Positions 334 to 58,152 of a DNA stretch of 64,000 bases are shown in pieces. Position 1 is the first letter of the stretch. Each line of letters opens with the position of its first letter. The translations under genes and the position numbers were made by a program. Below the pieces are notes generated by a model. That model had not been told where the DNA came from. It saw nothing but the letters and a program-made list of their open reading frames with translations, and did not search any database. This DNA comes from Phorcus lineatus (taxonomy: Eukaryota; Mollusca; Gastropoda; Trochida; Trochidae): the NCBI GenBank assembly GCA_921293015.1, contig OV121088.1, positions 3,100,001 through 3,164,000 of the forward strand, read 5' to 3'.

Positions 334-438
334 TAAAAGAGAGTACAAGCCAGAATCTGAAGTCAAGAAAGCAGAAAATAGAAGAAGCATTTCCAAAAGT
401 GTTCTCTGGCTTGTATGATGAAGTTCCCTCCTTCACAG
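334..438 (+). CDS. copy 1 exon a: first half of post-TIR module
   Basis: Acceptor AG at 332-333, donor GT at 439-440, phase 1 to 1. It encodes a helix with the motif QKIEEAFPKVFSGLYDEV, aligning with EKIGKMFPELLQEVYDGV of copy 2 exon 17 (52857-52970). Confidence 0.65.
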
Positions 439-32304: not shown

Positions 32305-33363
32305 TCCTGTAGAGCTCTTTTCTATTTGTTGTTCCAGAAGTATAAAGAACATTGAATAAGGCAGAGAATTCAGGGTGATTTTTATATGAGCATCAGTTTT
32401 TAAGAATTATATAACCCAATCGTGCTTAAATTGTGCATCTTTTTTTCATTTATAAAGGCTTTATGATAATGTTTTTTAGCCTTGCTTTCAATGATTGCTA
32501 AAGAAAAATGGTTTTTTACCTGTCTATTTTAAAATGACCCTCCCCATCCTTTCGTATTTTTTTTCATGACCCTTCTCTGTTGGCTGTATATTTTTTTCTG
32601 ACCCTCCCCTGAAAACCCCTGGCCCACTCCCCCCTGTAATTAATGACTGGTCCCTAACTAAAGACTATAAAGCTGAATTATCTTTAATTTAAGCTATTGT
32701 ATCTTTTCTCAATAAATGTAATTATGAAATTTCTCTTAAACAGGTAAATATGTGTCATTTAAATTTGCAACTTTTATGCAGTTAAGGATATTTCACCATT
32801 TTATTGAAAAAATCAGTTGATATTTTACACTCAAGTAGCTTTGACCAAGAGTTTCAAACAGTGACGACTACTTGATGTAACCTTGAAAGGACTGTCCTTT
32901 TGAAAACAGAATTCAATACATGATATAGCACATGAATATATAACGTATATAACACAGTTGAAACATTTGACTAATGATGTCATTTTGGTGGATTTGAATT
33001 TGTCAACTTGATAAATATGAGCGCACACTCAGAAAAAAATCCGTCATTACATAGCATTGTTGATTAGTCTTATCATAAATAACTTATAAGTGTGTGTATA
33101 TTCTACTCTAACATATCGTGTATTGTTAAAATGATTTAAAAAAGGTAAAAGTAAAGTGCATTTTGTCATGTCATTCCCCTGAAAAAAAGCCATGGCGGGC
33201 TATCATTCTTCTCACATGCTTGCTTATGTAAAACTCTCTAATAATTAGTTATATTAGTAACTATAAAAACACAACTAACAATGCTTTGCAATAAGAGTTT
33301 TGTCAATTTAAGATGTATGAATAATTGAACCCTGCCTCTATTTGTGAATTGTTTCTATTCCAG
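32305..33363. other. upstream region of gene copy 2
   Basis: AT-rich, no coding exon recognised. It ends in a polypyrimidine acceptor (TTTCTATTCCAG at 33352-33363), which implies at least one untranslated 5' exon further upstream that I could not locate. No promoter could be assigned. Confidence 0.4.
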
Positions 33364-33377: not shown

Positions 33378-33398
33378 ATGAAATTGTTATCGAGATGA
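33378..33398 (+). promoter_or_regulatory. short upstream ORF overlapping the start codon of copy 2
   Basis: ATG AAA TTG TTA TCG AGA TGA: the TGA overlaps the main ATG (33395) as ATGA. An in-frame TGA at 33368-33370 blocks any upstream extension of the main frame within this exon. Confidence 0.5.
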
Positions 33399-33466
33399 TC
33401 TCATCGCCATTTTCAGTTGACATGGAAACCATCGAGGGACATGTTCCATCAACCTCAGAATTCATT
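33395..33466 (+). CDS. copy 2 exon 1 (start)
   Basis: ATG chosen as the first Met after an in-frame stop in the same exon. Encodes MISSPFSVDMETIEGHVPST and SEFI. Donor GTAAGA at 33467, phase 0. Confidence 0.65.
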
Positions 33467-36400
33467 GTAAGAATATATTCTTAACATCAACCACTAAAGT
33501 ATATGTAAATCTAAACTTAAAACAAGAGACAACATTCTTGTCCTTAATTCAAGAAACAATGAAGAATCTTGATAGAATTATACTAAAAGATTTCATATAA
33601 TCTATAACAACAGTCAAATGATTTTGCAGGGAAGATAACTTTTAAGATCAAATATTGTTGTTTTGATAATGCTGTATACATATCCAAATATCATGCATAG
33701 CACAAACAAGAACTTTATTCCTTAAATCGGCACACTGAGTATGTTGTTAGAGTCAAATATGTCAAACTTCATAAATGATGTTATTTCATTGAGAAGTAGT
33801 GGTTAATCCTGAAATTGGTTTGCCCTCATTTCGCCTGCCCTCATTTCGCCTGCCCTCATTTCGCCTTCACCTCATTTCGCCTACACCTGAAAACCCCCTC
33901 ATTTCACCTACACTTAGTGCAAAGGGTCACTTCCTCACCCCTATTGTGAATGGTGTAACCCATGACAGACATGAGCCGGACTTGAGTAGATGAACCATGT
34001 GCATGTCATCTGTCATGTGCATCCAACTATAACTGTGTTTTGATAAGAATTTAGGTGAAATGAGGTTTAGGCAAAATGAGGACAGGCCCTGAAAGACCCT
34101 CATGATGGATATCAGTTCAATATGGATAATATAAAGTAAAAGTCGTAATTTGTGATAGGAAACCTGACAATAATGTGCCAAACGTAATTTTGGAAATATA
34201 TGTACAACAGATATGGTAAAAATATGGATTACTAGTGTTAAGTAGGTTATTTAACCTTTAGTCACGTAAAAGGCATGCAGCGTTCAAATTATTAACATTT
34301 TTATTTTTATTGTTTGATATTATCATGGAAAACAAGAAAACTTTGTTTTGGACTTTTAGAGGTTAAGATGCAAGTTTAGGGTAGCTATTTGAACTTGACA
34401 CAAGAATATGATATTTTTGCTCTCATTTAAACTGCATAAAATGATGAAACATACTCTGTGTCATTTTAATATGGTTGTACAAACAAGACAATTATTTCGG
34501 AATTCACAGATATCAGCAAAAGCAGCGAGAGGACAGTCTCCACCAAATGGTTTGACTGGAACAAATCAGCAAGACATGAACACTCAGGTATTTTATCTTA
34601 CATGTTAAAATAAAAAATATTCAAAACAAGAAACTTTGAAATCAAATGTATGGAAGCGCACCTCTGGCAACAATGCACTTCCATAGAAATGATATCTAAC
34701 TTTAACTTTTGATCAGGGATAAAGTGTGGTAAAGAACAACTGGTTCTATATAGAGGATATTATATGAGTGTCGTAAACATAGTATGTCATGGACACAAAT
34801 ATGATATTCTGTTTATTACCGAAGTCGAGAAATCAAAGAAACTGATCAAAATCAACATCCAAGCATAGGCATAGGCGCATTTGGAACACAACGTCATAGG
34901 CGAACTGTGACGTCGAAGCATTGTTTTTTACGTGACGTCACAATGAAAATGTGATATGTTGCCCTAGGGCATCGCATGAATAATATGAACCGCAAAATGA
35001 TTGCCCTCGTAGGTAATAAAAAGGTTTTAAGACTCAACTTCGATAATGTAAATAACATATATATGGTTTTGGGTCTAAATGGATATTGCACTTTGATGCA
35101 TGGTTCGCCAGGCAAACACCACAGTACATGTACTATAGTTGTGAACTGTATATCCCTGAATACATGTACAGTGTTGAGACAAACAAAAGGTGAGGTAATA
35201 ATTTCTGGCCCACTTTGCACGAAAAATATAACTTTCCTATTATTGATTATATGATTATTAGAATATGAAATTTGTATCTCTCACTTATGAATTTAAATTT
35301 TCGATTAAATTAGTTGATGCTTAAAATTTTTTTACACTTATTTGGAGTCCCTTTCCTGTTTTATAGTATGATAATGAAATTTGATATATTATGTTATTTT
35401 CTTTCTTTCTCCAGGAAGACAAGAATATGAATGGTGAGTTCTTCATAATGGATTTATGTCCCACTGATAAATAATTCTCTGGGAGAAAGTTATTGCCCCA
35501 TCTTTCTGTCAATCACTTTATTTCTCTGTTATAATTTTGTTTCAAGAATTCAGAAAACTTTTATAATAGCTTTTTAGCTCATCTGTCTTAAAAGGCCCAA
35601 TGGGCATGGCACTTCCTTGAAAATAATTTTTGTCTGATTTTTGAAAAGCAAAAGTCAAAGAAAGCTAAAATCTTGTTCAGCTGATTATGATTCAGATATG
35701 TCGTTCCTGTGACCATTTGTCAAAGAATTATAGTTTTCATTTATATCATAACATATACCAATAGCTCTTATTTAGAAACTTGCACAGGTATCACTTATCG
35801 ACTGGAATAGTGTTGTTTTTGATAATTTCGAAAATTTCATTTCATTGTTTCCATGAAAACAAGCTAGATATGGACACTTTATAGAAATAGGTTTGGTTCC
35901 CGGGCAAAACTTCAAAACTCTTTATCATATATTAAGGAAACTTGGAATGTGTATTATATTCTGAAGCAGTGCCTTTTAATATTTTATTTTACTTAGGTTC
36001 ATTTCCAGAGCAGTTCAGTTTGTATTGTAGTCCAGTCTGTAAATACTCAAGGGTAGCATGAAATGTAGCAAGGATATAAAAAGGATCTTGTTCTTTTGCC
36101 CTGTCTTCAAATTGGTATGTTTAATTGAATTGAGTAATTTTATGAGGTCTAGAAAGCTGACACTAAGTGTACACACTGCTTTGTAATTCATAGATTTAGT
36201 TACCCTTTTTGGCCACTGATTAATGTCTCAGTTGTCTAACTTCTCAGATGTCTCACGTCTCAGTTGTCTAACATCTTGCTCCTTAAATACATTTTTTCAT
36301 TAGCATCTAGAAGAAAAAAGAAAAGAAAGCTGTTAAGTTCTTACCGTCTAAAGCCTACTGAGCTACAGAGACCATGGCCTTATTCTTTTATCATTTTCAC

Positions 36401-39400
36401 ACAACTTCTCAAGCCTGTTTTCGACTAGTGATAAATGTTTTTTGCACATCATTTAGGAAATGTATGTTCATGAAGCACTGAATTTATTTTCAGTCATTGT
36501 CCATTCTGATCAAGCAAAATCATCGGCTGAAACACTACGGGATGAAATGCAAAAACAGTGTCATTCTGTTTCCTTGCTGTGCTTAAGAGGTGAGAATCAA
36601 AAGAAGATATTACAAATATGGACAAACATTTTAAAAAACATTTGAGAGTGAATATGTCTTCTCTTACGGAAATAATATAAGATTAATTTGATCTCAACAA
36701 CTTTTAAAATCAAATCATTGATTGTTTCCCTATTCGTGGTTTGTCACTTCCAATCATCTATAAAGTCACCTATCCCATAGATGTCTGTGTCAACAAGAAC
36801 TTTGTATAGCAAATTACCTCAAATGAGATGATAGGACTGACAGATATCCAACCAATATGACCCCAACTTTCTCGAGCACTTTGCTTAAGCATTAGATATT
36901 GCTACCATCAACATTTTCTCTGAATGATTCTCTGTATGACACACATATATTTTGTATAAAAGTAAATCTTTTTCTATGTGTCAGGTTGGCCATGGTAAAT
37001 CACTGTTACTCCTATCAAGGGGTGGATGTGCATCAGGTTGGCCATGGTAAATCACTGTTACTCCTATCAAGGGGTGGACGTGCACCACCATTCTGCACCC
37101 TCATGTTTCTAACTTTCTGTCTTTAGTTCTACAAACCAGAACGACAATTTTCTTACAGATCCGACGGACCTAAAGGAAAAGATCCTTCTTGATTCAGTGA
37201 CGGGCCTCTACATGTTGGTAGATCCCAGTCTCTTTGAACTTTTATTCCAGAGAAAAGTTCATAGGGGTCTCCATTCTGATGTTTATGACTTTATGGATGG
37301 TAAGTAACTCCTTTGCATTTAGAATATCAGTTTTAAGTTACTTAGACAGGTCTAATTTGTTAATGGCCATCCGTACTGCCTAATGATGTTCAGTAATAAA
37401 AAAGCTTTGTCACAAGAAACTATGTTTCTTAGATGTACTACTAACCTATTTTCATTTTCTTACCCATAAGCAAAAAACCCAGGAAGCTTTTGGTATTGAC
37501 TCCTTGACTAATGAAGAATCTTATTTATAGTTTGAACCCCCTGTGGTACTATAGATTCTTAAGAAGAAAAACCTTCATAGCTGAAACGTTTTCATACTCT
37601 CAAGCCATGTGGATTATAATGCTGTGGCCCAAACCTATTGATAGTAATTTTAAAGCCTGATGGGCTACAAAGCCCACGAATAATTTTTAGTATTCATAGT
37701 CTGTCTTGCTTCATTTTTAATGTAAGTTATACTGGATAAAAAACGTAGCCCAGAACACTGGTTGGCTGCTTGATGTACTGAGCTACGTCACATAATATTA
37801 TCGTTATCATATAATGGATGTTTAAAAGGCACAATCTCATGACACACATCAGGTCAAGATTTAATAGTGATGCATAAATATTTGCTTTGCAGGAGGTTTT
37901 GTTATGTGTTTGAACTTTATTTCTTTGTAGAATTGGAAGAGAAAGACAAATGTATTAGCTTGTTCAACAAAATGGAAAAAGGAGATGATCGCTTTATGAC
38001 GCTCTTTTATCACCTCCCAAAAAAATGTGCAAAGATTGTGAGACAAATAACGGTACAAGGTGGTAAAGTTCAAGGGATGAAGAAAAGGTCTTCAAAGTCA
38101 ATTGACTCAGGAATAGCAGACTTATCATTGAACGAAAACTCCAAGCAGGACTCTGGAGGTACAGCTGCTGATTCAGGGAATAAGCTCAAGGATGGTCCTT
38201 CATCCAATCAGAGAATAAAGTCTGACTCTATCAAGACAGGTCCTGGCGGGGACGGTAGAGAAATTGTTTATTCCCAAAGAGATGCTAGTTTGATGTCAAG
38301 TCCTCCAAAAAGTCTAACTGTTCCATTTGATAGTGAAGAGAGTCCTGAGGGTGAAGCTGAAGTGAAGTTAGAAGACCAGGGAGAATTGGAACTGACTGAG
38401 GATGATTCTCTGTCTGAGGATTCTGAGGAGGATGATCCTCAGTCCAATGGTGAATCTTTTTGTCTCTCTTTTAGTCTGTGACAAAGTGATAGTTCGGGGT
38501 AAAATTTTGTTTGACTTGTTTAAAATTTTGTGCAAAAGTTTATTGATGAGAAGTTGCATTTGATGACCTTCAGCTTTTGAGCTAATCTGGCCTGAAAATC
38601 TCAATGGACTTATGGCACGGCATCGTGTCTGGTTTCAAGCTCCAGTCAGTAAACTTTTCACTATTCTGATCTTCTTATCCAGAACATTTGAATTAGGACA
38701 TCTGAAATCTTGTACACCGACTCTTTGACTAATGAAGTATTTAATCTAAAGGATTGGTAACCCTGTTACTCCAAATAAAGGCCAAAGACGCCATCCAGTG
38801 AAAACCTAATCTTCACCAGAAGCAAAAGGCCTTGAAAAAAATCAACCTTGTGTAGCAATGCTTTATCTAACGGGGCTTCTTTTTCAAAGTTTTGATGAAC
38901 ATGTGACCCATCAAATGGTCACAAGGCAATAGATTTTAGAAAGCCTGATGAGCTACAGAGGCAAAGTCTCTAATCTCAATTTTTCAAAGTCACAACAAAT
39001 GTTTAGTCATACTCTCAAACTGCAACTATGCAAAGTTGTATGCATTCTGGTTAAGATTTCTTTTAGGCATATATAATATGATCAAGATGGTTTCATGTGG
39101 AAAGATAAAGATTATTTTCATGTACAATTGTAAGAAAACATTATTTATAAACAAGTTGGGAAATAAAAAGAAAAAAAAACATGAAAAATTTCTGGAAATA
39201 TAATGTTCCTGCACTTTGTCTTACCGGTAGTTGATGTCCAAGCAGTCCAGATAGGTCACCACCAGACCATGGAGGTCCAGTGGATGGCCGGTCAGATGGT
39301 CAACGCATCACAGGAGGGCTGGAACAACACCTTGGAGGTCAATATAGGTGGGCTGTACTGAAAAAATTCAATTTACAAAGAAAGCTTCAATTGTCATGTT

Positions 39401-42400
39401 CTTAAATCTAAATATCAAGAAATCAGACAATATTGTATTAGGTTAAAAAAGCTCATATTTTCAGAATAATATTTGTTACATGTAGACAAAATTTGTAGAT
39501 TACATATCCTGATGGCTCTTTTCATCAGAATTAGGTTGAAAACTTTTGTTTTATTGGTTGAATGTGAATTTGTATCAAAAAGGTAGTATGTATTGTTTCT
39601 AAACTTTGGCTCGAGTGCCAAGATTTGATGAGGTCATTATCAATATGTACAGCATGACCTGGACTCAGTTGTAACTAAGTTACTTGAGATTTGTTTCCTG
39701 TCCAAATCATTGTGAGAAATGCAGGGATTGGTATGGTGCAAAACATCAAGAGATTTTATTTTTAATAAATTTCATCTTATGTTTTTGGCTGTCCTATAAA
39801 CAGTTTTGAAGGTGCATGGTAAAGGTATATATGCCAGCCCATACTTTTGCAAAATATTCTAATCAGAATTTACCTAAAATGGAAATAATTTGTCTTTTCT
39901 ACAAGAACAAGAAAATCTATGCTGAAACAGCAAAGTCTTGATGTTCTTTGGGGTTTTTTAATGCCAAAATAAGGAGGTTATATTTCAAACTTCATTTTCA
40001 AAGTCTTATTTTTGAAAGTCATCAGAAACAAGTGTCATTGATAGCATTTCTCTCCAACAGTGCCACCAGCCTCAAAGTCGAAGGTGATCGTTGTTTTTAC
40101 CACAAACCCTCCTGACAAAAACCTCGACAACCTGTTGGTGAAGGAGTTCAATGATGAAACAGAGCTCATCAATGTTCGGGTTCAGGATTTGGATGGCAGC
40201 AATGTCAAGGTCTCAAGTGGCTCTGTTGTCATGGAGATAGAGGTCAAACCAGGGGTCACCATCGATGAGCAATACATTGAGAAGTTGATGAATGTAATCT
40301 TCAGTGGGAAAGCTGGCAAAGTTATTCCGGAGAACACAAAATTTGATGTTGACATCCAAACCAAAATGGTGGTCCCTTTTGACCAGCTTGGAAAATATGG
40401 TAAGAAAAGTCTCTTACCTAAATTTGATTTCTCTTTCTTTTTTTAAAAAGTATTTTTACAAAAAAGAAGCATTAGATAATAACACAAAATCCAAGTTTCA
40501 ATTGATACCAAATTAGATATGTCGGCAAAATTGTGTATCAAAATTTTTACCACCTTATAAGCTTTCTTCCAAAATTGTTGTCAATTTCTGTACTTTCATT
40601 CTTCTCTGTAAAAAAAGAACAGATGTTATAGCGGTTATCTACCTTTTATTTCAGTGCACTTGAACCCTGAGAAAATACATGAAAACTGTGTGAGCAAAGA
40701 AAAGGTGAGACTGTGTTCATCAACAATTGTCGCTATTTCAAATCTACAAATGATATTCATTATTAGGGTACTTTTATAACACTAATAAGGGATACTCTCT
40801 AAGTGTTGAACATGCATATTCTATGGACACTGAAGATAGTGAAGGGTTTGCTAATAAATTCAGGATGGTGACAATAACTGGTTTAAGTCATGATTTCTGA
40901 TTGAAAACAGACACAAGCACGCGCTGATGATTCAAACTTAAATTTGGATAATTATTACAGCACACACAAAGATAAACATTGCTTGATATTGTTATGTAGA
41001 TCATTTAACTGATAAATATAGTAACTTAACAAAGAATTACGACTTTTTGAAATTTATGAGGCTGTTTTTCGATTATCATTGAAAACAAGAAAATATCATA
41101 ATTCTGGCATTTTAGAGATAATGATGCTAGGCTATTTTTTACTTATTTCAAATAATAAGATTTTTATTGCTGAATAAAATCTGTCTGATTGTCTGTCTGA
41201 AGATGTTCTTCGGAATAATTGACTTTTACTATGACTCTATTCTATTGAAAGTTAAACTTGATGAGGTGTCAAATGTTCTATTCATCCTTAATTTATCATT
41301 CACTTTTCTTCTGACAAGTCAACAACCTAACACAGGTAAGAGTGATATCTCCACCCACCTCTGGGGGAGTCCCGCTGAACACTTCACTTTTACTTTGACT
41401 CTATTCTGATTCCAGTATGAAGAAAAGGTTAGAGAGATCCAACAACTCCAGAGCAGACTGGTGCAGGGTAATACAACATCACATTTATTAGATGGAGGAT
41501 CCATGTGGTTCTCTTTCTCCTTGTATTTATGATTATAGTCATTTATGGAGAACTCTTGTCATATGGAAGTTTATGGGGTTTTTTTTATCAAGGCAGAAAA
41601 TAATAATATTATGTTGGGTATAAAAGTTACAGATTCAAGTTTTTCTTATCTCAGTCTAACTTACAGTAAATGAAAACAACACATTAGATAAACTTGAAAT
41701 TTTTGCTCAAATTTGTCTCCTAGAATATAGCTTCAGTTCTTGACTTGTAAGCTGTGATAATTGTAGCTAACCTAGCAACCCAAAGCCATGATGGTTTAAA
41801 CCAGCTTGAGCACACTCTGTTTGAGGCATAAATATGAAATAAGGTTATCATTATCCATGATTTAAGAGCTGTTGATATGTATTTTACCCTATGTAGGTAT
41901 TTTAAAGAATCCAAAACACGACCAGGTGCTACAGAATGCTCTGAAGAATTTCATCTCATCAGTTCTGACTGCTTTTGCCTTTGCCATGTTGACTGAAATA
42001 CCAGCTCTACAAGTATCAGGATCAACGAAACAGGAGGCTACAGCTAGAGAAGAAGAGAAGAATGTAAGTGATAGAGCTCCTTCATAGCTCAATCTTTTTC
42101 ATGAAGCCATCCATCTATCTGTTCAGCACTGGGATGTTAAGTAAAGCTAGTACAGATGGAGGTTCATGATATGTAGAGATAATCTTGGAACATATTCAAT
42201 TTGAATCAGACTGAAAATATCTCTTTTTGATACATTACTGAAGATATCAAATGGAATTTATATTGGTAAATAAGAGATGCCTTTTGGAATGGCACAGAAA
42301 TTATCAAATTGAAAAGCTAAATTGTTATTTAATTGAGGTTATTTATTTCTTCTTTTATTCAATTGAATGTATATATTACAATTATATTATAATTATTATA

Positions 42401-45400
42401 TATCATAGTATATAATCAGTTATTACTATGCAGTACCATTATCTGTATAATACATCTTTCGTTATAAATTATATTAGAAAACAGAAGAGAGTTGAAGTGT
42501 CACAAGGCAGATGGAAACAGATGAGATATAACCATACCTTGAAAGATAAAAAATTTGTTTCACCTGGACAACTAAAATAAGGTGTAAATCAGTAAGGGAA
42601 GGAAGTTATGATTACAGTAGCCAATTAGAAAACATTAATTCATCAAAGATAGCAGTTGATATGACCTTTAAATTGAAGTAATCATTATGAAGTCACTCCT
42701 AAGTGTGTTTCCAGCGGATTAATTTCAAGAATGTCTTGTTTTGTGTAGTGTTAAATTGGATTTGAGATAGAGAATGCAATCAAAGTCAAGGATTCTTTTA
42801 AAATAATCAACTCGTCCCTTTGGGGATTTCGAAGTCATGGATTTGGGGCTCGTTGATCATTTTCACAAATCCACTTCTCTTTGTCAATTACCATTACTTT
42901 AGTAAAGCCCAATAGTAAGGAAGTGAAGGATGGTCCTTGTTTGCAAGGCTTACGCAACAGTTAGAATGTACAGGGAAGCATTTAACTGTAAACACTGACA
43001 AATTTACATAGAAGATAAAACAACATAAAAATACATGATGAGGCGATAGGAATCATAACTTTATTAATGAATTTATGATTTAATTTTAAAAGCACTTTTT
43101 TTAAAAAGTTATTAATTTTTGCTTTATGTTTGAATAACCACACAGCAATCTGTCAGGAGAATTTTCCTTGAATCATGTTTCTATTGGAACAGTAAGAATC
43201 TTTTGGGTTTTTTAGCTTTTTATTGTGAAAATCACAATATTTCAGATTGTATGTTTAATCCTTCATCAGGTTGGTTGAAGGAGTGAGCATATACTCCGAG
43301 TCCAAAAAGTCATGATTTTTGTAAAATAAGATGTTGTTATCTTTGTTTAATCAAACATCTCAATGAAACTAGGGAAAACTGGGAGATATATGATGATTCT
43401 ATTTTTAGACAGTATGAATTAACTCTCACTTTCAGCCGATCGTAAGTGGCAGGCAAACTTCATCGGAGCAGGGGTATGAGCTGCAAGGTTTCTCTCAACG
43501 GTCAGATTCCGGATATAATGAAATTACCCCCAGGAAAGGTAAAAACCATTTTTTCAATATCCAAACATCCATTACATCAAATGTAACATTGTAGTATTCT
43601 GGAACAAATTATGAGATCCCAATATTATTTTAATAATATTACATAGAGGATACTAAACCACCTTCCATTTAATACAAGTTTTATTAAACGAGTTAATGAT
43701 TAAGTATAAGACATGTGAAAGTGAGTTTGATACCATATCATTACTGAGTTTAATAAAATTAGTATTTGCACCCTTATTCACCAACTTTCATCCAAAATCT
43801 AATTTCAACATCAATGGTTACTTTATGTGCCATCAAAGCTTTTGAATTCTTGTTTTCAAAAATGTGTGACAGCATACAGTTTCATGGTCACTAAAACGGT
43901 TTTACTAATCGTTAATGAAATTTATGAAGAACATGATTATTATCATCTTGTACAAACCAGTAAGCACATCTCCCCTTTGTCTTTATTAGTGGCAGGGGAT
44001 TGCCATTTCATGACAGTTATTGCCAAAAACTTGTTTTGAATATTTTGATAACATTTATTGGTTGTTACATTTATTCACTTTTCTATAATTAACCCTTGGC
44101 TTACAGGGGACTGAGTTTATTATTCTAATTATCACTCGCTGATTTATATGAAATGAAAAGCATGAATATCGCCGAGATGTGACGTCATGCTTAACGATTG
44201 TGACGTTATGTGACGTCAATCAACACGCGATGTTATTGTGTAATAACATGGTGGATTTATTAAACGGCGGTACCTTCAACGGGCGAGTAATAAAATTGCT
44301 TTAATTCTTGTTCTCAATCTTCCTACCACAATGTGTGAGGATTATCTTTCATTGTCTGTCAGCCTGCCATCTCTTTGTCTTAAATCTATAAAAACAACTG
44401 GTTACAAGCGGCACACCAACCAATTGCTGGACAGTTTCAAATCTTATCGTTGGAGAGAAAGTGAAGAAGAAATGAAAAATGAATTGATATATTTTATCCT
44501 CTGCATTGGAAAAAAGGGGGGCCTTCAGCTGAATGTATTTTAGAGAAAAATTTATATTTTTTATTCAGGCTCCTGGCTGACCGAGGAACAGTCCGACACA
44601 GAGCCATGTTCTTCTGGGATAACTACAAGACACAGCAAATGGCATTTTGATGTCCTCATTATTCAAGGGGCAGACCCATTTTTTGGGATAAGTTTGAATG
44701 AATTGTTAGCAAAGCATGGATTAAAGTGTGAGACAATTGACAGTACAGAATCACTGACAGATCATCATATGTCTTCACAATATGTTGTTGTAAGTGATCC
44801 AAGTTGCTTTGAAAAAAAAGAGCTGTTAGAGATACTTTCACTCCATCACGGAAGATTAATTTGTCTTATTTCTGACGATTTTGAGCTTCATCGTCTACCC
44901 TCCATCCAGGATGGGGTGTTAACTGTCATAGATAGAAGGAGGCGGTTCTGGAGAGAAGATTTACTTGAACAACTAGGAAGTGAGTTTTGTAAATTTGTAA
45001 AGGATCAAACAATTTCATTCATTGATACCTGAATTTTGATGACTACTATGGGATAACTAACACAAACTTCCAGCAATCAAATATTCAATCAAACATTCTT
45101 TTGCTGATGAGAAAAATTTATTTTCATGAAAATCAAAATAACTTTTCTATATGTATGCTTGATCGTTAACTGTCTCTCAGCCCTGTATTTTATTGTATCT
45201 GCTAGCCAATGTGCAATATACTAAACATATTATATTTCAGTGATATATACAATCGGTTGTCTTCTTAAACTAATACAAGTGAATTTTATCCCCCAAAGGA
45301 AAAGAACATGAAAAACTGGAGGAGTCAACATTTGAGAAACTTGCGGAGAAAACTCATGAACTCTTTGATTTGGTTTATGGACACCAACCAGTCTTTTCAG

Positions 45401-48400: not shown

Positions 48401-51400
48401 AATAACACTTTCATGATAAAGGAATTACTGATAGCTGAATGAAATGTGCAGTTGTAGATAAAAAATGAAATGAATTGTAAAATCAAAACAAAATCCTTAA
48501 AGGCTGAATACAATCAGTTTGGCAAATGATTTATGTTTGAGTTCGTAACAACTCATTCTCAAAGTATATGACATAAATTGGTTACATATCAAATGCATTT
48601 GTTTTTTCTGAACAGATATAGGTCTTTGACCTCCTTTGACACTCCTCAGTTTTTCTTTCTCTTAATGAATGGTTCTTTTTTATGGATACAGTAAGCTATT
48701 CAACTGATGTCATCTTAAGTTTTTCATCAGCATTTCAAAACCATTTTGTAATAAAATAAGAAATACATGTTGAAAATGAGACATTGATAGGGAGCAATCT
48801 AATTTCATACCAAAACTGCTAACTTGAATAAAAAAAGAAAGAAAATATTATCATGTGTTCATAATGTATTGTGATACACAGACATAAAAAGTTCAAGACA
48901 TAAAATTTACGATCTTGAAGATAGTCTCAAATAGGATTGAAATGCAGTGAAGCTCAATGGGGAAATTATTGTAGGAATTTTATGTTGCTGTAACGGTCAG
49001 GACACAAAATTTACGGACAGACATGTTACACATTGCAGATTTTTTGTTTTTCAAGATAATGAAAAATCAACTGCACTGATGAAATAAATTATCTCTAATG
49101 ATAAGCATGATATGATAATATTTGTTTGATAAGGTTTATTTATACAGTTTTTGTGAACATATATACCATGACCGTCACCTCCGGACAGAGTAAACCTGTT
49201 AATTTTGACCCAAAAATGTGATTTTATCAAAACTTTCAAAATGACAAGAATGAATCTATATTACTAAAACTGACCATTTACATCTAAATATTCTTCCTAG
49301 AAAGTAAAAGCCCTTTTAAAACAAGTATTTTTTTTAAAATCTTGATTGGACGGAAAATGACACCAATTTTGAAAACAACCCATAAAATGGTAAAAATTCA
49401 CTGCACATGCTGCATAAGAATACATGGCAATAAAAAAATCTTCCTAGTATTATTCCACCTCTCCTACTCTTGTGCAATCTTCTCTGAAACATCAAGTAAA
49501 TCAGTTGTGAAGCAAGATAAGAAATAGGAAGGAGCTTAGCTTAGGTACTTAGGGAGGAAGGAAGTTAAGAAGAAGACATAAAGACAGATATATATATATG
49601 ATAATGTATGTAAATATTTACAACGATTGCTTTGGTACAGGAGTGTATTTCAGGTGACCTTAAATCATATTCAGGGGATAATGAGAATAAAGCAGAAAGA
49701 TATTCACAGCTTGCATGTTCAATGAAATGGCAGCGAGAACAATAATATGAAGACAATGTGGAGTTTTTCTGGCCTATCAAAGAATTTTTTTAAAAAGACT
49801 TAAAAAGCAAGTACATTATTAATATTACATAACAAATATATCAAAAAGTCACCATTTATGACTTTTTGTGTAAACTCAACACATTTTTTCAAATTTTTGG
49901 GCTTAATTTTTTCTGTCAAGATCGTGATTTCAAATACCTGGAAACTGAGTACTCAATACTTTAGGTTTGCACTGAAATGAAACAAGGGAAAGCTTAAAAG
50001 TGCTTTCCCCTAAGTAACTAAAAGCCAATGCTTGACACAGTCTTGAGAAAAATGTAAATCATAATTTGCCTCCATGTTTTCTCCAAGATGGTGGCCAAAG
50101 AGTGCCACTTTCCTATCCCTCTCTTGCTGTGAGGGGAAATTAGACAGTCCCCTCTGATGTGGGCACTCTGTGGCCTCTGATTGGCTGGCTGCAGGGATCG
50201 ACTGACTGATCAGAATTTAGCCTGTATCATAACTCCCATCTCTATCACCTTTTCGTTATATCAGTACTGTAAAGTAAGCTGATAAACTGTTCTATGAAAG
50301 CAATACTGGACTATGAGCTGAAAAAGTGTGAAGTTTGATTTATACATCAGGAGATATAACCATATACAAAGCATGTAATAAGGGTATCATTATGTTTTAT
50401 TGTTGTATATCTTGTTTCCTGGCGTGACATTTTAAACATTGTTTTGATAATATTTTATTAACAATTGAATTTTTCAAAATATTCCATTACTTTGTTATTT
50501 TTCCGAAATGAATAATAATAATTTAATTCTAACTTCCATTTTTATTTTGAAGTCGTTGGTCATCAATATGCTCTTTCATTGAAAAATCTTCCCTAAAATT
50601 CTTCAAATTTCTTAGTCAATAAAAATAAAATGACCTCTTTTCTTCAGACAAAATCAAAATATATTGTTGTTATATAAAATCTGTACTGGGTTTTACTTTC
50701 TCATATTTTATTCAACACTAGGCTAATGTCATGAGCACAATTGTAAAACTGTTGAAACAACTTTTAGAGAGATATTTTTTACAGGGGATGTTTTGAATTT
50801 AAAAAAAAATGCATGCATTTTTTTCAGAACATATGAGAGCATTGAGCCGGAGGTTGGAAATCATTTTCATACTTCATCGTGATGCTGATGAAGAATTTGC
50901 ACATGTACTGAGGAAATATTTGGAAGACCTGAAGGGATATAAATGTTCCTTGCTATCAGAATTGGGTGAATTATCGCCGATTATGAGATCATCAAGCACA
51001 ATTATCTCCATTGTATCAAAGAATCTTCATGAATATAATTTACCAGCATTTCTGATGGGTGATGGCATTATAGATGGTATAGACAAAGAAGACAAAAAGC
51101 AGATTATACCAGTTGTCCTTGATCATGCCTCAGTCCCTCAAGGTTTGCAGTCATTTCAGAAGGTTAACGTTGGAGAGAAATTATGGCAGGAGAAGTTGAC
51201 TTCTCTACTTGATGCTTCAGGTATATATGTTGTTGTGTTTCATTCACTTTATTTGCTTATTCTAATGGATAAAGTTGCATTGTACATGTTGATGTGTTAT
51301 ATTTTACTCTTCAGACCTGAAGGTCAAATTGGCATAACTTCTATAGCAATGTTGCATCCCCACAGCTGAATTTTTGTTAGATGCAACATGTAACAAGGAC

Positions 51401-54400
51401 ACCGGAATTTATAACTTTTGGACTGACCAATCCCCACCCCCTTGTCATTGCAGGTTTTTCCTTAAAATCTTTAAAATTCTTCTTCTCCATAACTTTAATA
51501 TTGGTCATTTTAAAATAAAAAATATTTGGTAAGGAGACTACAAAATTTAATTTTTGTGTTGCCCACGTCTGAAATATGGGCAGAGTCACAATGAGTGCTA
51601 GTAATCTCAAATTTTGAAAATATCATCTTACTGCAGGTTGGAGACTAAGTTTAAATGTCTACAGCAGAACTATTAGGATTTCAGGGGTGTCTTTTTGGTG
51701 GTTAACCAAATCCGGAACGAGTTGGCAGACAATTGTTTATTTCAGTCTCACTTCTGTACAGCAACATATTCAAATACTTGGTAGATATACAGATAAAAGT
51801 ACAGAACCACTCAATATGAGTTATGAGAGACTATAATACAAATCATTTAAAACACAGTATAAAGTAGTAGGTTAAGAAAATAGAAGGCGTTTCCTTCTTT
51901 GTAATATTAAAAAGCAGGTTTTGGCAAAATAGTAAAACATGTGCATGGAAGCTTAAATATTCAGAATAACATCTTTATTTAGTGGATACTAAAGTTTTTA
52001 GAATCAAATATGGGTGTTGCAGGGTATCTAGGCAAAAATCTTTTATGATCTTTTTTAAGAAACCAAAATAATGAATAGAGAACAAGTTCTATGGATTTAC
52101 AACTTCTCTATTACAGGAATGCGACGTTTCGGTGTAGATCTCGATACTAACACCGTTATCAAGCAAGTGAAACGTCGCATTTCTGCAATAAAGAAGTTGT
52201 AAATCCATAGAACTTGTTCTCTATTCATCTCATAAACTTCTAAATGTCTCTCAAAGAAGAAGGAGCCAAAATAATGTTAGGAATCCCAAATTTCATCTTT
52301 GAAGGAAATATTTATTCAGAAGGAAGAATTGGGGACAAATTATCCATTTAGTGAAACCCTATCCTAGGATTGAGCCTTGATATATATAGTAGCACCAACA
52401 ATTCTGTCTGTCCATTCGTTCGAGGCCATTTTTTGTGCGACCAATTTCAGGAAAACTATTTATCCCATTCTTTTCCAAATGTGCACGTCTTCTCCACTAG
52501 TAGGAGGGCAATATTTCAAGGATGTATGTGAATTTTTAAAAATATTTTACACATTATATATGTTTCATACTTAGTCATATCAAAAGGTCACTATTTGTTG
52601 GACCAATTAAAGAGAGACTATTCAACCGATTCTTAAAACCATAACGCTAAGCATAATGAAACTAAAGATCCTTAGCAATTATATCATGTAGGATAAATTT
52701 GTGATTGAGTCATGTGGGTTTCATCTGCTAATACCTGTCTATTTTGGTGACCTTTGGATATTGCAAAGGTCAAGTCAACAAATTTTGCTTTATGTAAAGA
52801 ACAGTTTGTTTTTGTCTCGGGATATCAAGTAAATATTTGGTTATATTCTTTTTCAGTTGAAAGTAAGATTTCTCAAATGTCCACACAGGAGAAAATAGGA
52901 AAAATGTTTCCAGAGCTGTTACAAGAAGTGTACGATGGAGTGGAAGGTGTCCATTTCACTCAAGCAAAAGGTTAGTAAATGATACAACCGTCAAGTCCTC
53001 CCTGAAAGAGCGATTGTTTACATGTTTAGTTTCTTCAGCTGTTTTGAAGGTCTCTACCACTGTATTTATCAATTGTGGACACAAGATTTGGGGATATACT
53101 CCTGTTTGTAATATATATATAATAATTTAATAATATTTGTTGAAAGCTCATCTGACCTTACATGGCAAGGCTTGGTGATTATTTTTCTGTCTGTTCCTAA
53201 ATTTTGTCCTTTTCAGACTTCTTTTTACGAACCACTATATGATTATAGACATTTGAAATCTGGTGTACAGATCCCTTAGCTACTAGGTATTGTAAGTTGG
53301 TAACATAGAAGGGAATCTGTAGTTATTTTGATTTGTATATTTTGTGACTCTGTAATAAGTGATATCTCAAGCCCAGATAACATTTCTCAGTTTGAGAACT
53401 AATTAAGATTCTTTCAGTATTTATCGTCTATTAAAGAAAGCCAATGGTTCATGTGTATATCATAAAATTTAATATCTTTTTTTTTTCCGACCATGATTAT
53501 TAAATGTTAAACCTTTTGCAGTTCAACATAAAGGGGACACATTCACAATTGAATGGACTGAAGTTGAAGAGAGCTCGAGGAGGAAACTCTTCACAATAGG
53601 AAGTCTCGAAGAAGGGGAGACAACTGAAATAGATGCATGGGAGTCATGTAGCGGGCCGATAAGAACAGAAACAGAGGAAAACAAGGTTGCCAATAGTGCT
53701 GCAAAACTGACACAAGAGGATACAAAACCAAAGAAAACTGAAATCTATGACACTATTGCAGAGAAACTAAAGGAACTTGGCGACGAGATACATGAAACCA
53801 ATCCTTTGCCACAAGGTTTCATTATTTTATGTTTTTCTTAATTTCTTATTTAATAGTGTTCATATTGATTTTTAAATGTTTCTCTTAACCAATTTGGTAA
53901 GTATAAAAGATATTTCAGATTTCAGTGTTAATTTTCACAGTCAATGTTCCCCTATTTACTCAATGTATGCAATGTTTATGATCCTGTTTTAGATTAATAT
54001 ATGTATATGTAAATATAATATATGTAAACACAAAGATATTAGTAATATTATAGACAGAGATGTACTTTCTTTATATACATGTAAGACTCGAATCCATGGC
54101 AGGCCTCAAATCTGTGGCGGGTTTCCAAATCTATGGCAGATTTTCAAATGCCTGGTTAACTCTGCACCTACACAGATCTGTGGCGGATTTCGGATTGATC
54201 GAAATCTCGCAATTAGGCACATTAGGTTAAATAACATTCGTCTATGTCTATATCATGTTTACTGTATTTAAATCAGTTAATTTAGCATTGATACGTTTCT
54301 GATCACTTTAAATTCAAATTCTTATCTTTATTGGGCAAAGAGTTCATGCCTTTAGAGTAGGGCAAGAATCGACAAGAACTACTTAACCACCGCAGCCTTT

Positions 54401-57400
54401 AAATGTTACATAAAATGTGATCCGAAAGAAATTACTATCTAAATGACATATTTTTTAAATCAATTAAAATTATAGAAAATGTCCTTGGTTTATAATTTAT
54501 TCGCCTTTATAAAACTCCGAAAAGAAAGACAATAAAGCGTGACGGGTATGACATTAATTTATTCATAATATAATTTGAAACTCTCGATCGTGGATTTGCA
54601 ATTGATTACGGTTCAAGTGGCCCTTTTCAGAGTCGGACACCTCGTACATTGAAAACAGTACAGCTGGATTTCAGCAATGTAAAATCTACCACACAAAACG
54701 TCGTCTTAGTTCATTGATGGGAATTGTCTGAAATATACAGATATATTTGATATAGATGATGTATTGAATTACATTAGACAATTGAAGATGAGAGCATTGC
54801 ATTATACCGGGCAATAGTAATTATCAACTGCAATGATTTACCAAACCTTACGCTCGACAAACCAACCCTAAAAGATCGTCGACGTGAATCCAAGGGTTAC
54901 AAAAGATAGTCTTTTAATATGTTAGGGCTAAAGAAGATACTGTCAAGGGATTCAGAGGGCTAAAAATGATGGTAGAATTTAAACACGATTGATGTCGCAT
55001 GAATCCGCAATTGTCTTATCCGTTTGCAGTAGCCCGCTGTTGCTTTCTTGCTAGCGACGCGACTGGAACAGTTAGCTATTATGACGTCATCACACAATGA
55101 CGTCACCTAGCATAACGTCATGAAACAACCTAACAATCGAACTGGCCACGGATAAAGAAATCCGCCACAGATTAGAGACCCGCCACAGATCTGAGTCCTA
55201 CATACATAATAAATACAACAACACGTTTACAAAATAAACATGAAAATAAAATTTTCTTTTGATTTTTTTTTTCAGATACTGTCCTTTCGCCTGAAGCCAT
55301 TGGAAGAGAACTGGCAAATATTGGGGATAGAATTGATGGTTTGAATATTATTATGATGATAATGATAATACCGTTAGTAGTCATGCATACGTCCATTTTC
55401 TCTGAGATGAGCTCTTGTTTCTAAATATTTTGAAGTCTACCACAACCACGTCAGATTTTGCAACAAGATTTTGGTCACTGACTTAGTTACTTCTCATAAG
55501 GCAATGTTAAATGGATCTTTACAATCACACCAAAGCTACAAAATAGTCAGGTGTCAGGATGTATAGAGAATCTCACCCAAGTGTCATCTGATATCAAATA
55601 AATCAACACGATTTTAACTTTTTGCTTTTATCAAAATGTATATTTTCAACACTGCACTACATGTTTATGATGTCATAGCATTGTGATGTCATAGCATTGT
55701 GATGTCATAGCATTGTGATGTCATTGCTTGCATGATGTCACAAAACAATAGTGATGTCATTAACTTTGCTGTAACAGACCATTGTTCAAAATCCACTGTC
55801 AAAAAGATATTTACTAGGAGATATCACTTGATCTTTCACAAGCGATATCTCCCGTGGAACACAGCTTTGGATGATGAATAACAGTTGGCTCATGTCTGTC
55901 AGTCACACATTATGTTCTGCTCATAAATCATAAATCAGACACTTATAGTTAAAAAGAATTTAAACTTGACATATATTTTATCTTTTCTATCTTTTGGTCC
56001 CTCATTAGCAATGATTAGGGAAATAATCTTCAGTTTCCTTCACTGATTTCTTCCCCTAATAACTTGGACACTAATTGATTAAATAAACAAAACTTGGCTC
56101 ACATAATCACTGTTTCTGTTGATTGGCCTTTTGTATGTTTGGGTCACTCATTTCATTACATAAATGGATTATTTCTGTCTTTCTGATTGGCCTTCTTGGT
56201 CACATGACAGCAATGGCTTCAAGCGATGTCAACCTGTGTGGATCGTGAGAGGTTGATATAACAATCCAAACACCTCTGGTGGATAAAAATAGATTTCGAA
56301 AATCTCGGTCTATCGGAAATACCAGAAGAATGGTAATTCAAGACCTAATTCTTCGCCTCTGTGAATATCACATGTCCAAGGTCGATAAATCATTGGATCA
56401 ACCTCACTTGAAGTCAATAACTGTTTATTATCATAGATTTGCATGAAATCCAACTCTGTTTTTATTTCAGACCATGTCAAACTGGAAGATGTTCTTGAGT
56501 CTTATCTGAGAGGAGAAAAGGAGGTGGGTATATTTGGCCAACTATAAGTGTTGCTTGCATGTTTGAGATAGCATCAGTAATTCTAGGATAGGAAGGATAA
56601 GAAACCACATTTACAAGTTTGGCCAGAGCTAGGTAAGATCAAGATCAGCTGGTTTCCTGTCCAATGTTAGGAATCAATTACCTAGACTTAGAAAAGTTAT
56701 GTAAAAAAACTTTACCTTTATTTGTTTATCTGAAATGTAAAAGAAAGCTTAAGACAACATCCTCACTTGTTAATAGCCCTTGAAGTATCAGTGTATCGTC
56801 ATCATCATAACAGTGGGTAAACACAAATTACATGTACATCTTTTCCAAATAATCCCAGGCCCAGTTTACGAACAAATTGATTCATGAATGAAAGGTTATG
56901 GTACTTTTACAATTATTTTGTACAATCTTACTCTGCCAGGAGTCTAAAGGAGAGCAGCTTGTCAAATTTGCGTCATTATGCAATTGCCTTTTAGAAAACC
57001 CAATATATACCTCATCCTGTATATATCTTCTAGGCAAGACGGTATGAAGATTTCCGAGAAGCAGTTCACAAAAGTCTTGGCAGTGAGTCCAGCTGGCGGA
57101 CAATCGCGTCATTGATGTACGCAACCAAAAACGTCATGTCTAGATTCGGTACATCGATGGCCGCACCCTTGAGACAGCTTGCAGAGAAGTTTGTCCAAGA
57201 AGAATGTTCAGACTTTATTATACAGCAGGGAGGCTGGGTGAGATGGTGCTTTCTTTTTTTCACATTTTGAACCCAGTCATTATCAACTTATCTTTTCTCT
57301 TAAGATCTACTGAGGATAATTCATAATAGAAATCCCATTAGACATCTTACACTTTTGACATTCTTTCAGCTTCTCTCCAGCTTTTTCAGTTTGTTGGAGA

Positions 57401-58152
57401 CTTTAATTTGTAATTTCATTTTTGCCTACACTAAAATAATTAAATTTATCTGTTAAGAGTTGTGACTAAAGTGACACTAGAGTAGTTAGATTTATCTACG
57501 ACTTACTGTGGTCATTACTTTCAGCCTCATATTGATAGCACCATATATACCTATGACTTTTGGTTTGAGTGGGGGTAAAAATGATGCTTCACCCATTTCC
57601 AACATTGTCTTTAGGACATTGTAGTGCATAAGAAGTGCATTTGATATTTCTCAAGACATAATGTTTGAGAGTCTGGGAGACTGATATGTAATGAGTCCCA
57701 AGGTAAGAGTAGATAACTCTTGTAAGCAATTTTTAACTTCCAACTAAAGTACCAGAAGGCTGAAATCTGGTGAAGACAAACCTAATCTAGCAATAGTAAA
57801 AGGGTTTGGATTACTTCCTTTGAATAGTTAAAACGGTCAAGATCCATGGTATATCATGAACCTATCATTTCAATTGTAAATATTCAAGCTTGGATATATA
57901 AGGACCGATAAGCTACAGGGCCCAAAAGACTGTTAGGACCTAGTCTATCTCCTTTTGTTCTAGATTGTGAACTTTCTGCATTAATGATGGCGACTTTAGG
58001 ATCTATGTTGAAACATCGCTTCCACATAATAAAGAAGTTGCTTCTCCATAAAAATCGTCTTTATCCTTCATAAAAATTGTATGACTATTCATGGTTTTGT
58101 GTTGTAGGAGCAAGTACTCGATGAAGAAGGGAGCGACTTTGACATTGACTAG
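33395..58152 (+). CDS. gene copy 2: CARD - TIR - TIR - Bcl-2 homology fusion protein (1175 aa, 22 exons)
   Basis: All 22 exons have AG/GT borders and matching phases, giving 3528 nt including the TAG. Domains in order (residues): CARD about 89-178; Ser/acid-rich linker 179-308; unrecognised alpha/beta region 348-460; short coiled coil 461-494; hydrophobic helix about 507-528; TIR-like 1 about 606-721; module B1 722-787; TIR-like 2 788-918; module B2 919-1000; BH3-like 1035-1046 (IAEKLKELGDEI) and 1062-1074 (AIGRELANIGDRI); BH1 about 1108-1125; BH2 about 1154-1161 (FIIQQGGW). No signal peptide and no C-terminal membrane anchor are seen, so a cytosolic protein is likely. CARD and TIR are homotypic interaction or NADase folds of innate immunity; BH3/BH1/BH2 form the groove of Bax/Bcl-2 proteins. 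Inference: an adaptor or effector coupling immune sensing to mitochondrial apoptosis. Whether it kills or protects cannot be told. Splice sites are by eye; alternative isoforms are possible. Confidence 0.82.
33811..34090. mobile_element. inverted-repeat insertion with CCCTCATTTCGCCTG tandem units
   Basis: At the left, CTGCCCTCATTTCGC-type units of 14-16 bp repeat about five times; at the right, the inverted form (AGGTGAAATGAGG, then GGCAAAATGAGGACAGG) appears. It interrupts an interspersed repeat whose uninterrupted form is at 15090-15130 (GAGAAGTAGTGGTT...TCATGATG). It lies in intron 1 of copy 2. Confidence 0.6.
34510..34587 (+). CDS. copy 2 exon 2
   Basis: 26 codons, phase 0 to 0 (ISAKAARGQSPPNGLTGTNQ...). 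Low complexity, no domain. Acceptor AATTCACAG, donor GTATTT. Confidence 0.6.
34840..35300. other. intron 2 sequence, no gene seen
   Basis: Contains TGACGTCA-type palindromes near 34903-34945. Overlapping open stretches on both strands have no recognisable product. Confidence 0.4.
35415..35433 (+). CDS. copy 2 exon 3 (19-nt microexon)
   Basis: Strong acceptor CTTTCTTTCTCCAG and donor GTGAGT. It shifts phase 0 to 1, which the following exons need. Encodes EDKNMN. Confidence 0.65.
36494..36589 (+). CDS. copy 2 exon 4
   Basis: Encodes VIVHSDQAKSSAETLRDEMQ and KQCHSVSLLCLR, a strand-helix-strand pattern similar to the first third of the TIR-like domain in exon 16 (IIFILHRDADEEFAHVLRKY). It may be a truncated TIR-like unit or an N-terminal extension of the CARD. 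Confidence 0.7.
36981..37084. repeat. 52-bp direct tandem duplication in intron 4
   Basis: Two adjacent units at 36981-37032 and 37033-37084, starting TCAGGTTGGCCATGGTAAAT, differ by about one base. Confidence 0.9.
37159..37299 (+). CDS. copy 2 exon 5: CARD, first half
   Basis: Encodes LKEKILLDSVTGLYMLVDPS then LFELLFQRKVHRGLHSDVYD, matching the CARD pattern of helices 1-3 (..LLxxLxxxxLLDxLxxxxVLxxxxxxxI..). Phase 1 to 1. Confidence 0.75.
37931..38449 (+). CDS. copy 2 exon 6: CARD second half and acidic linker
   Basis: CARD helices 4-6: KDKCISLFNKMEKGDDRFMT then LFYHLPK, corresponding to the K..LLxxLxxKGxxAFxxFxxxL signature. A Lys patch and a long Ser/Asp/Glu-rich linker follow, with EDDSLSEDSEEDDPQS near the end, a likely casein-kinase-type phosphorylation region. 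Donor GTGAAT at 38450. Confidence 0.75.
38576..38965. repeat. interspersed repeat in intron 6
   Basis: Same family as 13610-14110 and the fragments near 35573 and 53137: starts GAGCTAATCTGGCCTG, carries CTTCTTATCCAGAAC and CACCAGAAGCAAAAGGCC words, and ends with GATGAGCTACAGAG. Confidence 0.55.
39231..39347 (+). CDS. copy 2 exon 7
   Basis: Encodes VDVQAVQIGHHQTMEVQWMA..., an amphipathic beta-rich segment of unknown family. Phase 1 to 1, acceptor TTACCGGTAG. Confidence 0.7.
40061..40399 (+). CDS. copy 2 exon 8: unrecognised alpha/beta domain
   Basis: 113 codons. Strands KVIVVFTTN, LINVRVQDLDG and GSVVMEIEVKPG alternate with helices (DNLLVKEF, DEQYIEKLMNVIF). The 'VSSGSVVMEIEV' strand resembles the GSV strand of SEA-type folds and of regulatory domains of invertebrate CARD/death-domain proteins, but I cannot name the family. 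Confidence 0.75.
40655..40704 (+). CDS. copy 2 exon 9
   Basis: 50 nt, phase 1 to 0, VHLNPEKIHENCVSKEK; start of a charged helix. Acceptor TTTATTTCAG, donor GTGAGA. Confidence 0.65.
41416..41467 (+). CDS. copy 2 exon 10: short coiled coil
   Basis: 52 nt, phase 0 to 1, YEEKVREIQQLQSRLVQ with heptad-like hydrophobics; probably one coiled coil with exon 9. Confidence 0.65.
41897..42063 (+). CDS. copy 2 exon 11: hydrophobic helix
   Basis: Encodes NALKNFISSVLTAFAFAMLT then a charged tail (EATAREEEKN). The apolar stretch FISSVLTAFAFAML is about 14-16 residues, short for a membrane helix; it may instead pack against the neighbouring domain. Phase 1 to 0. Confidence 0.7.
42064..43435. other. intron 11, no gene seen
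   Basis: AT-rich, with no recognisable exon, RNA gene or element ends. Confidence 0.5.
43436..43538 (+). CDS. copy 2 exon 12: Ser/Gln-rich linker
   Basis: PIVSGRQTSSEQGYELQGFS..., phase 0 to 1, no domain. Acceptor CTCACTTTCAG, donor GTAAAA. Confidence 0.65.
44569..44979 (+). CDS. copy 2 exon 13: TIR-like domain 1
   Basis: 137 codons. HFDVLIIQGADP forms the first strand; then helix LNELLAKHGL, strand QYVVVSD and strand RLICLISDDFELHRLP; and RFWREDLLEQL matches TIR box 3 (FW) and the last helix. The usual BB-loop proline motif is not obvious. Catalytic capacity for NAD cleavage cannot be judged by eye. Confidence 0.75.
45299..45400 (+). CDS. copy 2 exon 14: module B1, helix part
   Basis: FEKLAEKTHELFDLVYGHQP, matching IGKMFPELLQEVYDGV of exon 17. 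Phase 1 to 1. The donor GTAGTA is fair. Confidence 0.7.
46061..46378. mobile_element. MITE in intron 14
   Basis: CCGTATTTCCTCGATTACAA at the left and TTGTATTCGAGGAAATACGG at the right are inverted copies, flanked by TA. Internally a second motif pair (AAATAGAACCxxGG, AACCCGGGGG) recurs. No coding capacity. Confidence 0.8.
46667..46762 (+). CDS. copy 2 exon 15: module B1, strand part
   Basis: VKRNGPKIGIQWREQKQG, aligning with VQHKGDTFTIEWTE of exon 18. Phase 1 to 1. It is followed by a 4-kb intron. Confidence 0.7.
47747..49004. mobile_element. possible inverted-repeat element with dispersed GTAACGGT..GGACA motifs (intron 15)
   Basis: TGTCCTGACCGTTAC at 47747-47761 is the exact inverted copy of GTAACGGTCAGGACA at 48990-49004. 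Related motifs GTAACGGTxTGGACA occur in direct orientation near 48091, 48109 and 48307. No coding capacity. Confidence 0.5.
49005..50827. other. remainder of intron 15, no gene seen
   Basis: AT-rich. 50060-50230 is less AT-rich (around a GTCCCCTCTGATGTGGGC word) but has no recognisable coding content. Confidence 0.45.
50828..51220 (+). CDS. copy 2 exon 16: TIR-like domain 2
   Basis: 131 codons. LEIIFILHRDADEEFAHVLR (strand A and helix A), GYKCSLLSE (strand B), SSTIISIVSKN (strand C), KKQIIPVVLDHASVP (strand D), and KLWQEKLTSLL (box-3-like Trp). This is closer to canonical TIR spacing than domain 1. Phase 1 to 1. Confidence 0.8.
52071..52229. repeat. long near-perfect palindrome of Penelope-type terminal sequence
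   Basis: Arms of about 60 bp (ATGAATAGAGAACAAGTTCT ... AACTTGTTCTCTATTCAT) surround a loop with CGGTGTAGATCTCGATACTA. The inner words (GCGACGTTTCGGTGTAGA, AATAAAGAAGTTGTAAATCC) resemble the terminal repeats of the Penelope-like relic at 16271-17800. It lies in intron 16. Confidence 0.75.
52857..52970 (+). CDS. copy 2 exon 17: module B2, helix part
   Basis: VESKISQMSTQEKIGKMFPE then LLQEVYDGVEGV. Paralogous to copy 1 exon at 334-438 and to exon 14. Donor GTTAGT. Confidence 0.75.
53522..53815 (+). CDS. copy 2 exon 18: module B2 strand part, linker, first BH3-like helix
   Basis: Opens VQHKGDTFTIEWTE. A Thr/Glu/Lys-rich linker leads to TIAEKLKELGDEIHE, which fits the BH3 signature L-x3-L/G-D-E; compare LKRIGDELD in Bax. 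The donor GTTTCA is weak, but the phase fits and the next exon starts with a second BH3-like helix. Confidence 0.75.
54079..55204. mobile_element. non-autonomous DNA element between the two BH3 exons
   Basis: The left end (ATGTAAGACTCGAATCC, then AAATCTGTGGCGGGTTT) and right end (AAATCCGCCACAGATTAGAG, then CCGCCACAGATCTGAGTCCTACAT) form inverted repeats of about 60 bp with internal duplication of the CTGTGGCGG motif. No transposase; CpG-rich compared with the intron. Confidence 0.7.
55276..55338 (+). CDS. copy 2 exon 19: second BH3-like helix
   Basis: 63 nt, phase 1 to 1, so it can be skipped without a frame change. Encodes SPEAIGRELANIGDRID with the conserved GD pair. The donor is GTTTGA, again weak. 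Copy 1 has no counterpart. Confidence 0.7.
55670..55735. repeat. 16-bp tandem repeat with TGATGTCA core
   Basis: TGATGTCATAGCATTG repeated three times plus a partial fourth, followed by looser TGATGTCA copies to 55760. The core is one base from a CRE palindrome. Confidence 0.85.
56471..56523 (+). CDS. copy 2 exon 20: BH3-BH1 connector
   Basis: HVKLEDVLESYLRGEKE; same length (53 nt) and phase as copy 1 2317-2369. Acceptor TTTTATTTCAG, donor GTGGGT. Confidence 0.8.
57034..57237 (+). CDS. copy 2 exon 21: BH1 region and BH2
   Basis: 68 codons. YEDFREAVHKSLGSESSWRT then IASLMYATKNV corresponds to Bax/Bak helix 4-5 with the BH1 arginine. LRQLAEKFVQEECSDF then FIIQQGGW is BH2. Phase 0 to 0, acceptor TCTTCTAG, donor GTGAGA. 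Confidence 0.85.
58108..58152 (+). CDS. copy 2 exon 22: acidic C-terminus and stop
   Basis: EQVLDEEGSDFDID then TAG. The hydrophobic tail that anchors most Bcl-2 proteins in membranes is missing. Confidence 0.8.
   Translation, partial: EQVLDEEGSDFDID

Follow-up and report, generated by a model that had tools for sequence, protein, structure and literature searches.

To our knowledge, TIR signalling and the control of cell death by the Bcl-2 family lie on separate proteins in well-studied animals. Members of this family commonly, albeit not universally, carry a C-terminal membrane anchor, and NWGR is the typical signature of their BH1 region. Fusions of TRADD-N of the DEDD2 clade to Bcl2 have been reported, and retroelements were proposed to help make them (Kaur et al. 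2021, PMC8195603), while literature searches, largely at the level of listings, returned no TIR-Bcl-2 chain. Here, a stretch of 64,000 nucleotides from the gastropod Phorcus lineatus (GCA_921293015.1, contig OV121088.1, hereafter C13, positions 3100001-3164000; the window) was analysed, in which a predicted gene on the forward strand appears to join two TIR-like domains to a Bcl-2-like C-terminus. We consider it probable that this is one gene encoding a cytosolic adaptor that would couple TIR assembly to Bcl-2-regulated death.

Gene model

Twenty-two spliced exons (33395..58152, forward strand) formed an open frame of 1,175 residues with no internal stop and one terminal stop, as in the original prediction, which had joined 22 exons in consistent phase. 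GT-AG borders were found in all 21 introns, 15 of them in phase 1. The in-frame coding score was above zero in 21 of the 22 exons (the exception being exon 5) and exceeded the 95% value for intron pieces of 35 codons in 19 (exceptions: exons 5, 9 and 13). Moreover, an AG at 33362-33363 after a pyrimidine-rich stretch suggests that further 5′ non-coding exons may precede exon 1. A protein-database search with the whole model found nothing at E ≤ 0.001 among 8,000 candidates scored. Genome-wide comparisons were made within 74 contigs (957.8 Mb), and copies A, C and F below are related copies on C13. The exons, all on the forward strand (+), are as follows.

33395..33466 (+), exon 1, start codon at 33395
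34510..34587 (+), exon 2, gene model
35415..35433 (+), exon 3, 19 nucleotides
36494..36589 (+), exon 4, opens the N-terminal domain; 65% identity to copy C over 31 residues
37159..37299 (+), exon 5, opening part of the segment earlier called CARD, a CARD being unsupported
37931..38449 (+), exon 6, continues the exon 5 domain, then Ser/Glu-rich linker
39231..39347 (+), exon 7, gene model; counterpart in copy C
40061..40399 (+), exon 8, domain with genome relatives; weak likeness to DEDD2 TRADD-N
40655..40704 (+), exon 9, gene model; genome copies
41416..41467 (+), exon 10, gene model; genome copies
41897..42063 (+), exon 11, the protein's most hydrophobic 19-residue window (mean Kyte-Doolittle 1.64); 95% identity to copy C
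43436..43538 (+), exon 12, gene model; genome copies
44569..44979 (+), exon 13, TIR-like domain 1; box-3-like RRFWREDL; BB-loop gap
45299..45400 (+), exon 14, module after TIR-like domain 1
46667..46762 (+), exon 15, second part of the exon 14 module (GPKIGIQWRE)
50828..51220 (+), exon 16, TIR domain 2; eight-residue BB-loop gap; Leu in the catalytic-Glu column
52857..52970 (+), exon 17, corresponds to exon 14
53522..53815 (+), exon 18, corresponds to exon 15 (GDTFTIEWTE), followed by linker and BH3-like motif IAEKLKELGDEI from 53755
55276..55338 (+), exon 19, downstream BH3-like motif IGRELANIGDRI from 55299, falling on BAX BH3
56471..56523 (+), exon 20, Bcl-2 domain
57034..57237 (+), exon 21, BH1 and BH2 region
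58108..58152 (+), exon 22, acidic end of the chain and stop codon; without membrane anchor

Bcl-2 homology of the C-terminus

By sequence, the C-terminus is Bcl-2-like. Spliced exons 18-22 matched Pfam PF00452 over its full length (E 2e-5, 25.5 bits), below the curated cut-off of 31.4, and the spliced C-terminal piece aligned to human BAX with an E of 3.6e-6, the GD of exon 19 falling on the BAX BH3. A two-sequence profile matched 123 PDB sequences at E ≤ 1 and, among the 60 of these that were listed, all were BAX, BAK, Bcl-2 or Bcl-xL, one of these under the name Bcl-2-like 4. The homology spans BH3, BH1 and BH2 in order, so the alignment of the C-terminus with Bax/Bak in the original prediction was borne out by both the BAX comparison and the profile matches. 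The BH1 arginine that it had pointed to was not: the W of SSWRTIA lies on the W of NWGR, which leaves R at the place of Gly and T at the place of Arg, and a shift of one residue would place R on R. The BH1-BH2 region looks constrained, with ratios of non-synonymous to synonymous substitution (dN/dS) of 0.15 and 0.26.

Besides the BH3-like motif of exon 19 (55299), a second one was found in exon 18 (53755); these were the only two matches in the protein of a pattern drawn up after the motifs had been seen, at least two matches occurring in 0.9% of 20,000 shuffles. No C-terminal membrane anchor was found, the best 19-residue window near the C-terminus having a mean hydropathy of 0.38.

TIR-like domains and internal repeat

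The internal repeat and the TIR homology of exon 16 are supported by computation, that of exon 13 less strongly. Exon 16 scored 23.6 bits (E 7.9e-5) against Pfam TIR_2, for which the cut-off is 28, and a read-through copy of this exon scored above the Pfam cut-off. In the comparison of exon 16 with two TIR proteins of the same genome (L023 and L025, on C29), none of 500 shuffles was as good. For exon 13, TIR homology was detected by profile-profile comparison and not by single-sequence tests. The two TIR-like domains of the original prediction were therefore recovered, one strongly and the other by profiles. Furthermore, exons 17-18 repeat the module of exons 14-15 that follows the first TIR-like exon.

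In the alignments of exons 13 and 16 to TIR, the BB loop falls in a gap (eight residues in exon 16), and in exon 16 a Leu occupies the column of the catalytic Glu of TIR. The predicted structure of exon 16 was poor (mean predicted local distance difference test score of 45); with this model, the 50 fold-search matches listed held no TIR and were headed by ribosomal S6 and PII-like proteins. A protein-database search with exon 16 returned nothing at E ≤ 1 among 15 candidates, and PDB searches with exons 16 and 13 gave best E values of 0.075 and 0.15, respectively, to unrelated proteins. Judging from their sequence, the two TIR domains seem worn down.

N-terminal region

A CARD had been placed upstream of the TIR-like domains, and neither sequence nor profile tests on exons 5-6 detected homology to CARD, which was thus rejected for this stretch. 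Hence, of the CARD-TIR-TIR-Bcl-2 chain first put forward, the Bcl-2 homology and the two TIR-like domains stand and the CARD and the BH1 arginine fall, and the chain in that form is very improbable. Exons 4-6 as a third TIR unit were dropped as well (hhalign probability 0.5%, 13 of 100 shuffles as good), and exon 7 compared with exons 15 and 18 no better than shuffles did. Exons 4, 5 and 6 had 65-70% identity to copy C, while PDB searches with exons 4-6 and 7-10 gave best E values of 0.096 and 0.33 to unrelated proteins.

The domain of exon 8 had 10 genome matches at E ≤ 1, itself included, and its likeness to the TRADD-N of DEDD2 may be taken as a lead only. On this lead, the protein would be a relative of the DEDD2-clade TRADD-N immune proteins, exon 8 being TRADD-N and exons 4-6 a DED-like domain, which we hold to be unlikely. 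The exon 8 family retains GS at the place of the DEDD2 GSVV, hhalign of the family against DEDD2 gave an E of 0.035 with none of 60 shuffles as good, exons 4-6 were equalled by 3 of 60 shuffles in comparison with DEDs, and a TRADD-N of this clade fused to Bcl2 is already published (PMC8195603). However, the hhalign probabilities were only 1.47% for the family against DEDD2, 0.35% against a DEDD2 plus TRADD profile (2 of 60 shuffles as good) and 1.28% for exons 4-6 against DEDs. Moreover, 45 of 60 shuffles were as good against TRADD alone, a two-sequence exon 8 profile gave 28 of 60, and no TRADD-N match was found in Pfam for any of the eight members of the exon 8 family, nor in PDB.

Duplicated cluster and gene boundaries

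The gene belongs to a cluster at 2.65-3.16 Mb of C13 with four copies bearing exon 8 and three Bcl-2 halves, some pieces being antisense. A lone N-terminal half at 2649 kb is followed on one strand by N- and C-terminal halves in the order N, C, N, C, N, C. Copy C, about 0.3 Mb from the gene, has exons 4 to 15 in order (2821497-2845813; exons 12 and 15 as partial matches), then exons 17, 18, 20 and 21 about 27 kb past its exon 15, followed by another exon 12-like match, and an exon 15-like match antisense. In copy F, exons 8-12, 14 and 15 were found without exon 13; the Bcl-2 half of copy A starts about 120 kb beyond, with an antisense exon 16 between copies F and A. No BH3-like motif was found in copies A and C within the scanned stretches. 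The counterparts in copy A, in window positions, are as follows.

334..438 (+), counterpart of exon 17, end set by phase
765..1004 (+), counterpart of exon 18, to a phase-1 GT donor, without BH3-like motif; the read-on frame stops at 1066
2317..2369 (+), counterpart of exon 20, sequence match
3055..3249 (+), counterpart of exon 21, protein 91% identical
4187..4231 (+), counterpart of exon 22, sequence match

Between the gene and copy C, dN/dS ranged from 0 to 0.26 in exons 9, 10, 11 and 21, was 0.41 in exon 14 and 0.53 to 0.64 in exons 8, 13 and 18, all from small counts, a pattern that would fit faster change in the TIR-like parts and linkers.

From the sequence, exons 1-22 quite likely form one gene. 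Several points weigh against this and against the coupling it would allow. The Gly-Arg of the BH1 signature is not kept in the BAX alignment (SSWRT against NWGR), which lowers our confidence, and the annotated frame was strictly the best of three in only 15 of the 22 exons, with a tie in exon 21. The model is weakest where exons 15, 16 and 17 meet, exon 16 beside exon 17 having been found in the window only. Since the halves of copy C lie about 27 kb apart and exon 15 of copy F lies about 120 kb from exon 17 of copy A, two adjacent genes of the tandem cluster might have been joined only by the model: an upstream TIR-type gene (exon 1 to exon 15 or 16) and a downstream Bcl-2 gene (exons 17-22 with an unseen first exon). 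Copy A has exons 17-22 with no convincing match to exons 4-15 within 40 kb upstream, N-terminal halves outnumber Bcl-2 halves, the joins are unspecific with so many introns in phase 1, and the antisense exon 16 copy near copy A raises our confidence in this division. On the other hand, exons 17-18 repeat the module behind the first TIR-like exon and so fit behind a TIR exon, the exon 16-17 distance in the window is 1.6 kb, and the alternating order of halves on one strand is that expected of copies of one unit. Two separate genes thus seem somewhat unlikely.

Proposed mechanism

Read as a single gene, the locus would encode an N-terminal domain (exons 4-6), an acidic linker, a second part (exons 7-11), two repeats of a TIR-like exon with two short module exons, a pair of BH3-like helices and a BAX-like Bcl-2 domain that lacks a membrane anchor. 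With a BB-loop gap and, in exon 16, no residue kept at the catalytic Glu, the TIR-like domains would dock other TIR proteins rather than cleave NAD. Clustering of the protein might then expose the tandem BH3-like helices, which would bind to Bcl-2 proteins and so either promote or hinder cell death. Which of the two applies is not readable from the sequence; we lean towards a sensitising effect, given that BAX is the nearest solved relative and that two BH3-like motifs are present. Whether the protein's own groove could hold a BH3 is doubtful, as BH1 has lost the Gly-Arg pair. A more speculative and rather improbable version is that TIR assembly directly gates the BAX-like module, clustering releasing tandem BH3 helices masked in the same chain; this would be a new kind of animal protein, linking TIR signalling to mitochondrial death within a single molecule, with the tandem copies lacking BH3 motifs (A and C) as natural decoys.

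If true, such a naturally occurring TIR-TIR-Bcl-2 chain, encoded by a locus that is duplicating, would be a short cut between TIR signalling and Bcl-2 death control through which the sensing of infection is tied directly to cell suicide. The sister copies that lack BH3 motifs would offer a ready comparison.

Genomic surroundings

The 3′ flanks of copy A (9985-13035) and of the gene (60026-62526) share stretches, the longest of 909 bases at 86% identity, which suggests that the duplication extends beyond the gene. A Gypsy-like retroelement, recognised by eye from open reading frames (gag zinc knuckle, reverse transcriptase and integrase), lies between them (20436-26008, forward strand). Furthermore, a tandem array at 10304-11375 comprises 12 copies of an 89-base unit, with a related piece downstream of the gene near 60336, and an open reading frame at 16773-17195 resembles, by eye, the N-terminus of a pogo/Tigger-type transposase. 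No Rfam family or tRNA matched in the window.

Comparison with known systems

Vaccinia A46, as described in PMC5156371, likewise has a Bcl-2 fold that acts on TIR adaptors, but it is of viral origin and binds the TIR proteins of the host, without TIR fusion. The TRADD-N-Bcl2 proteins share with this locus an invertebrate immune-type Bcl2 fusion, lineage-specific copies and retroelements nearby; in contrast, sections 10 and 11 of PMC8195603 name no TIR partner, and exon 8 here shows a weak likeness to TRADD-N. In the same genome, L023 and L025 have a TIR domain homologous to exon 16 (L023 also by Pfam), but have two things that exon 16 is missing, namely the stretch of the BB loop and a residue in the column of the catalytic Glu. 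Relative D (C9:39751337-39752710) has a BH3-like motif of the exon 18 type, a BH1-BH2 exon 37% identical and, by eye, an acidic tail; it differs in having a single BH3-like motif over the 3.8 kb covered by the scan and, by eye, long basic N-terminal exons, with no convincing TIR-exon match in the 60 kb examined. Its three pieces, joined by eye, reached 32.5 bits against PF00452 and passed the cut-off of 31.4, with NWNQ in place of NWGR; it is also a Bcl-2 protein without apparent membrane anchor. Finally, BAX and BAK, the best solved relatives of the Bcl-2 part, share with it BH3, BH1 and BH2 in this order, whereas here these regions stand in frame with TIR domains, with two BH3-like motifs, no membrane anchor and a BH1 in which the Gly-Arg of NWGR is replaced.
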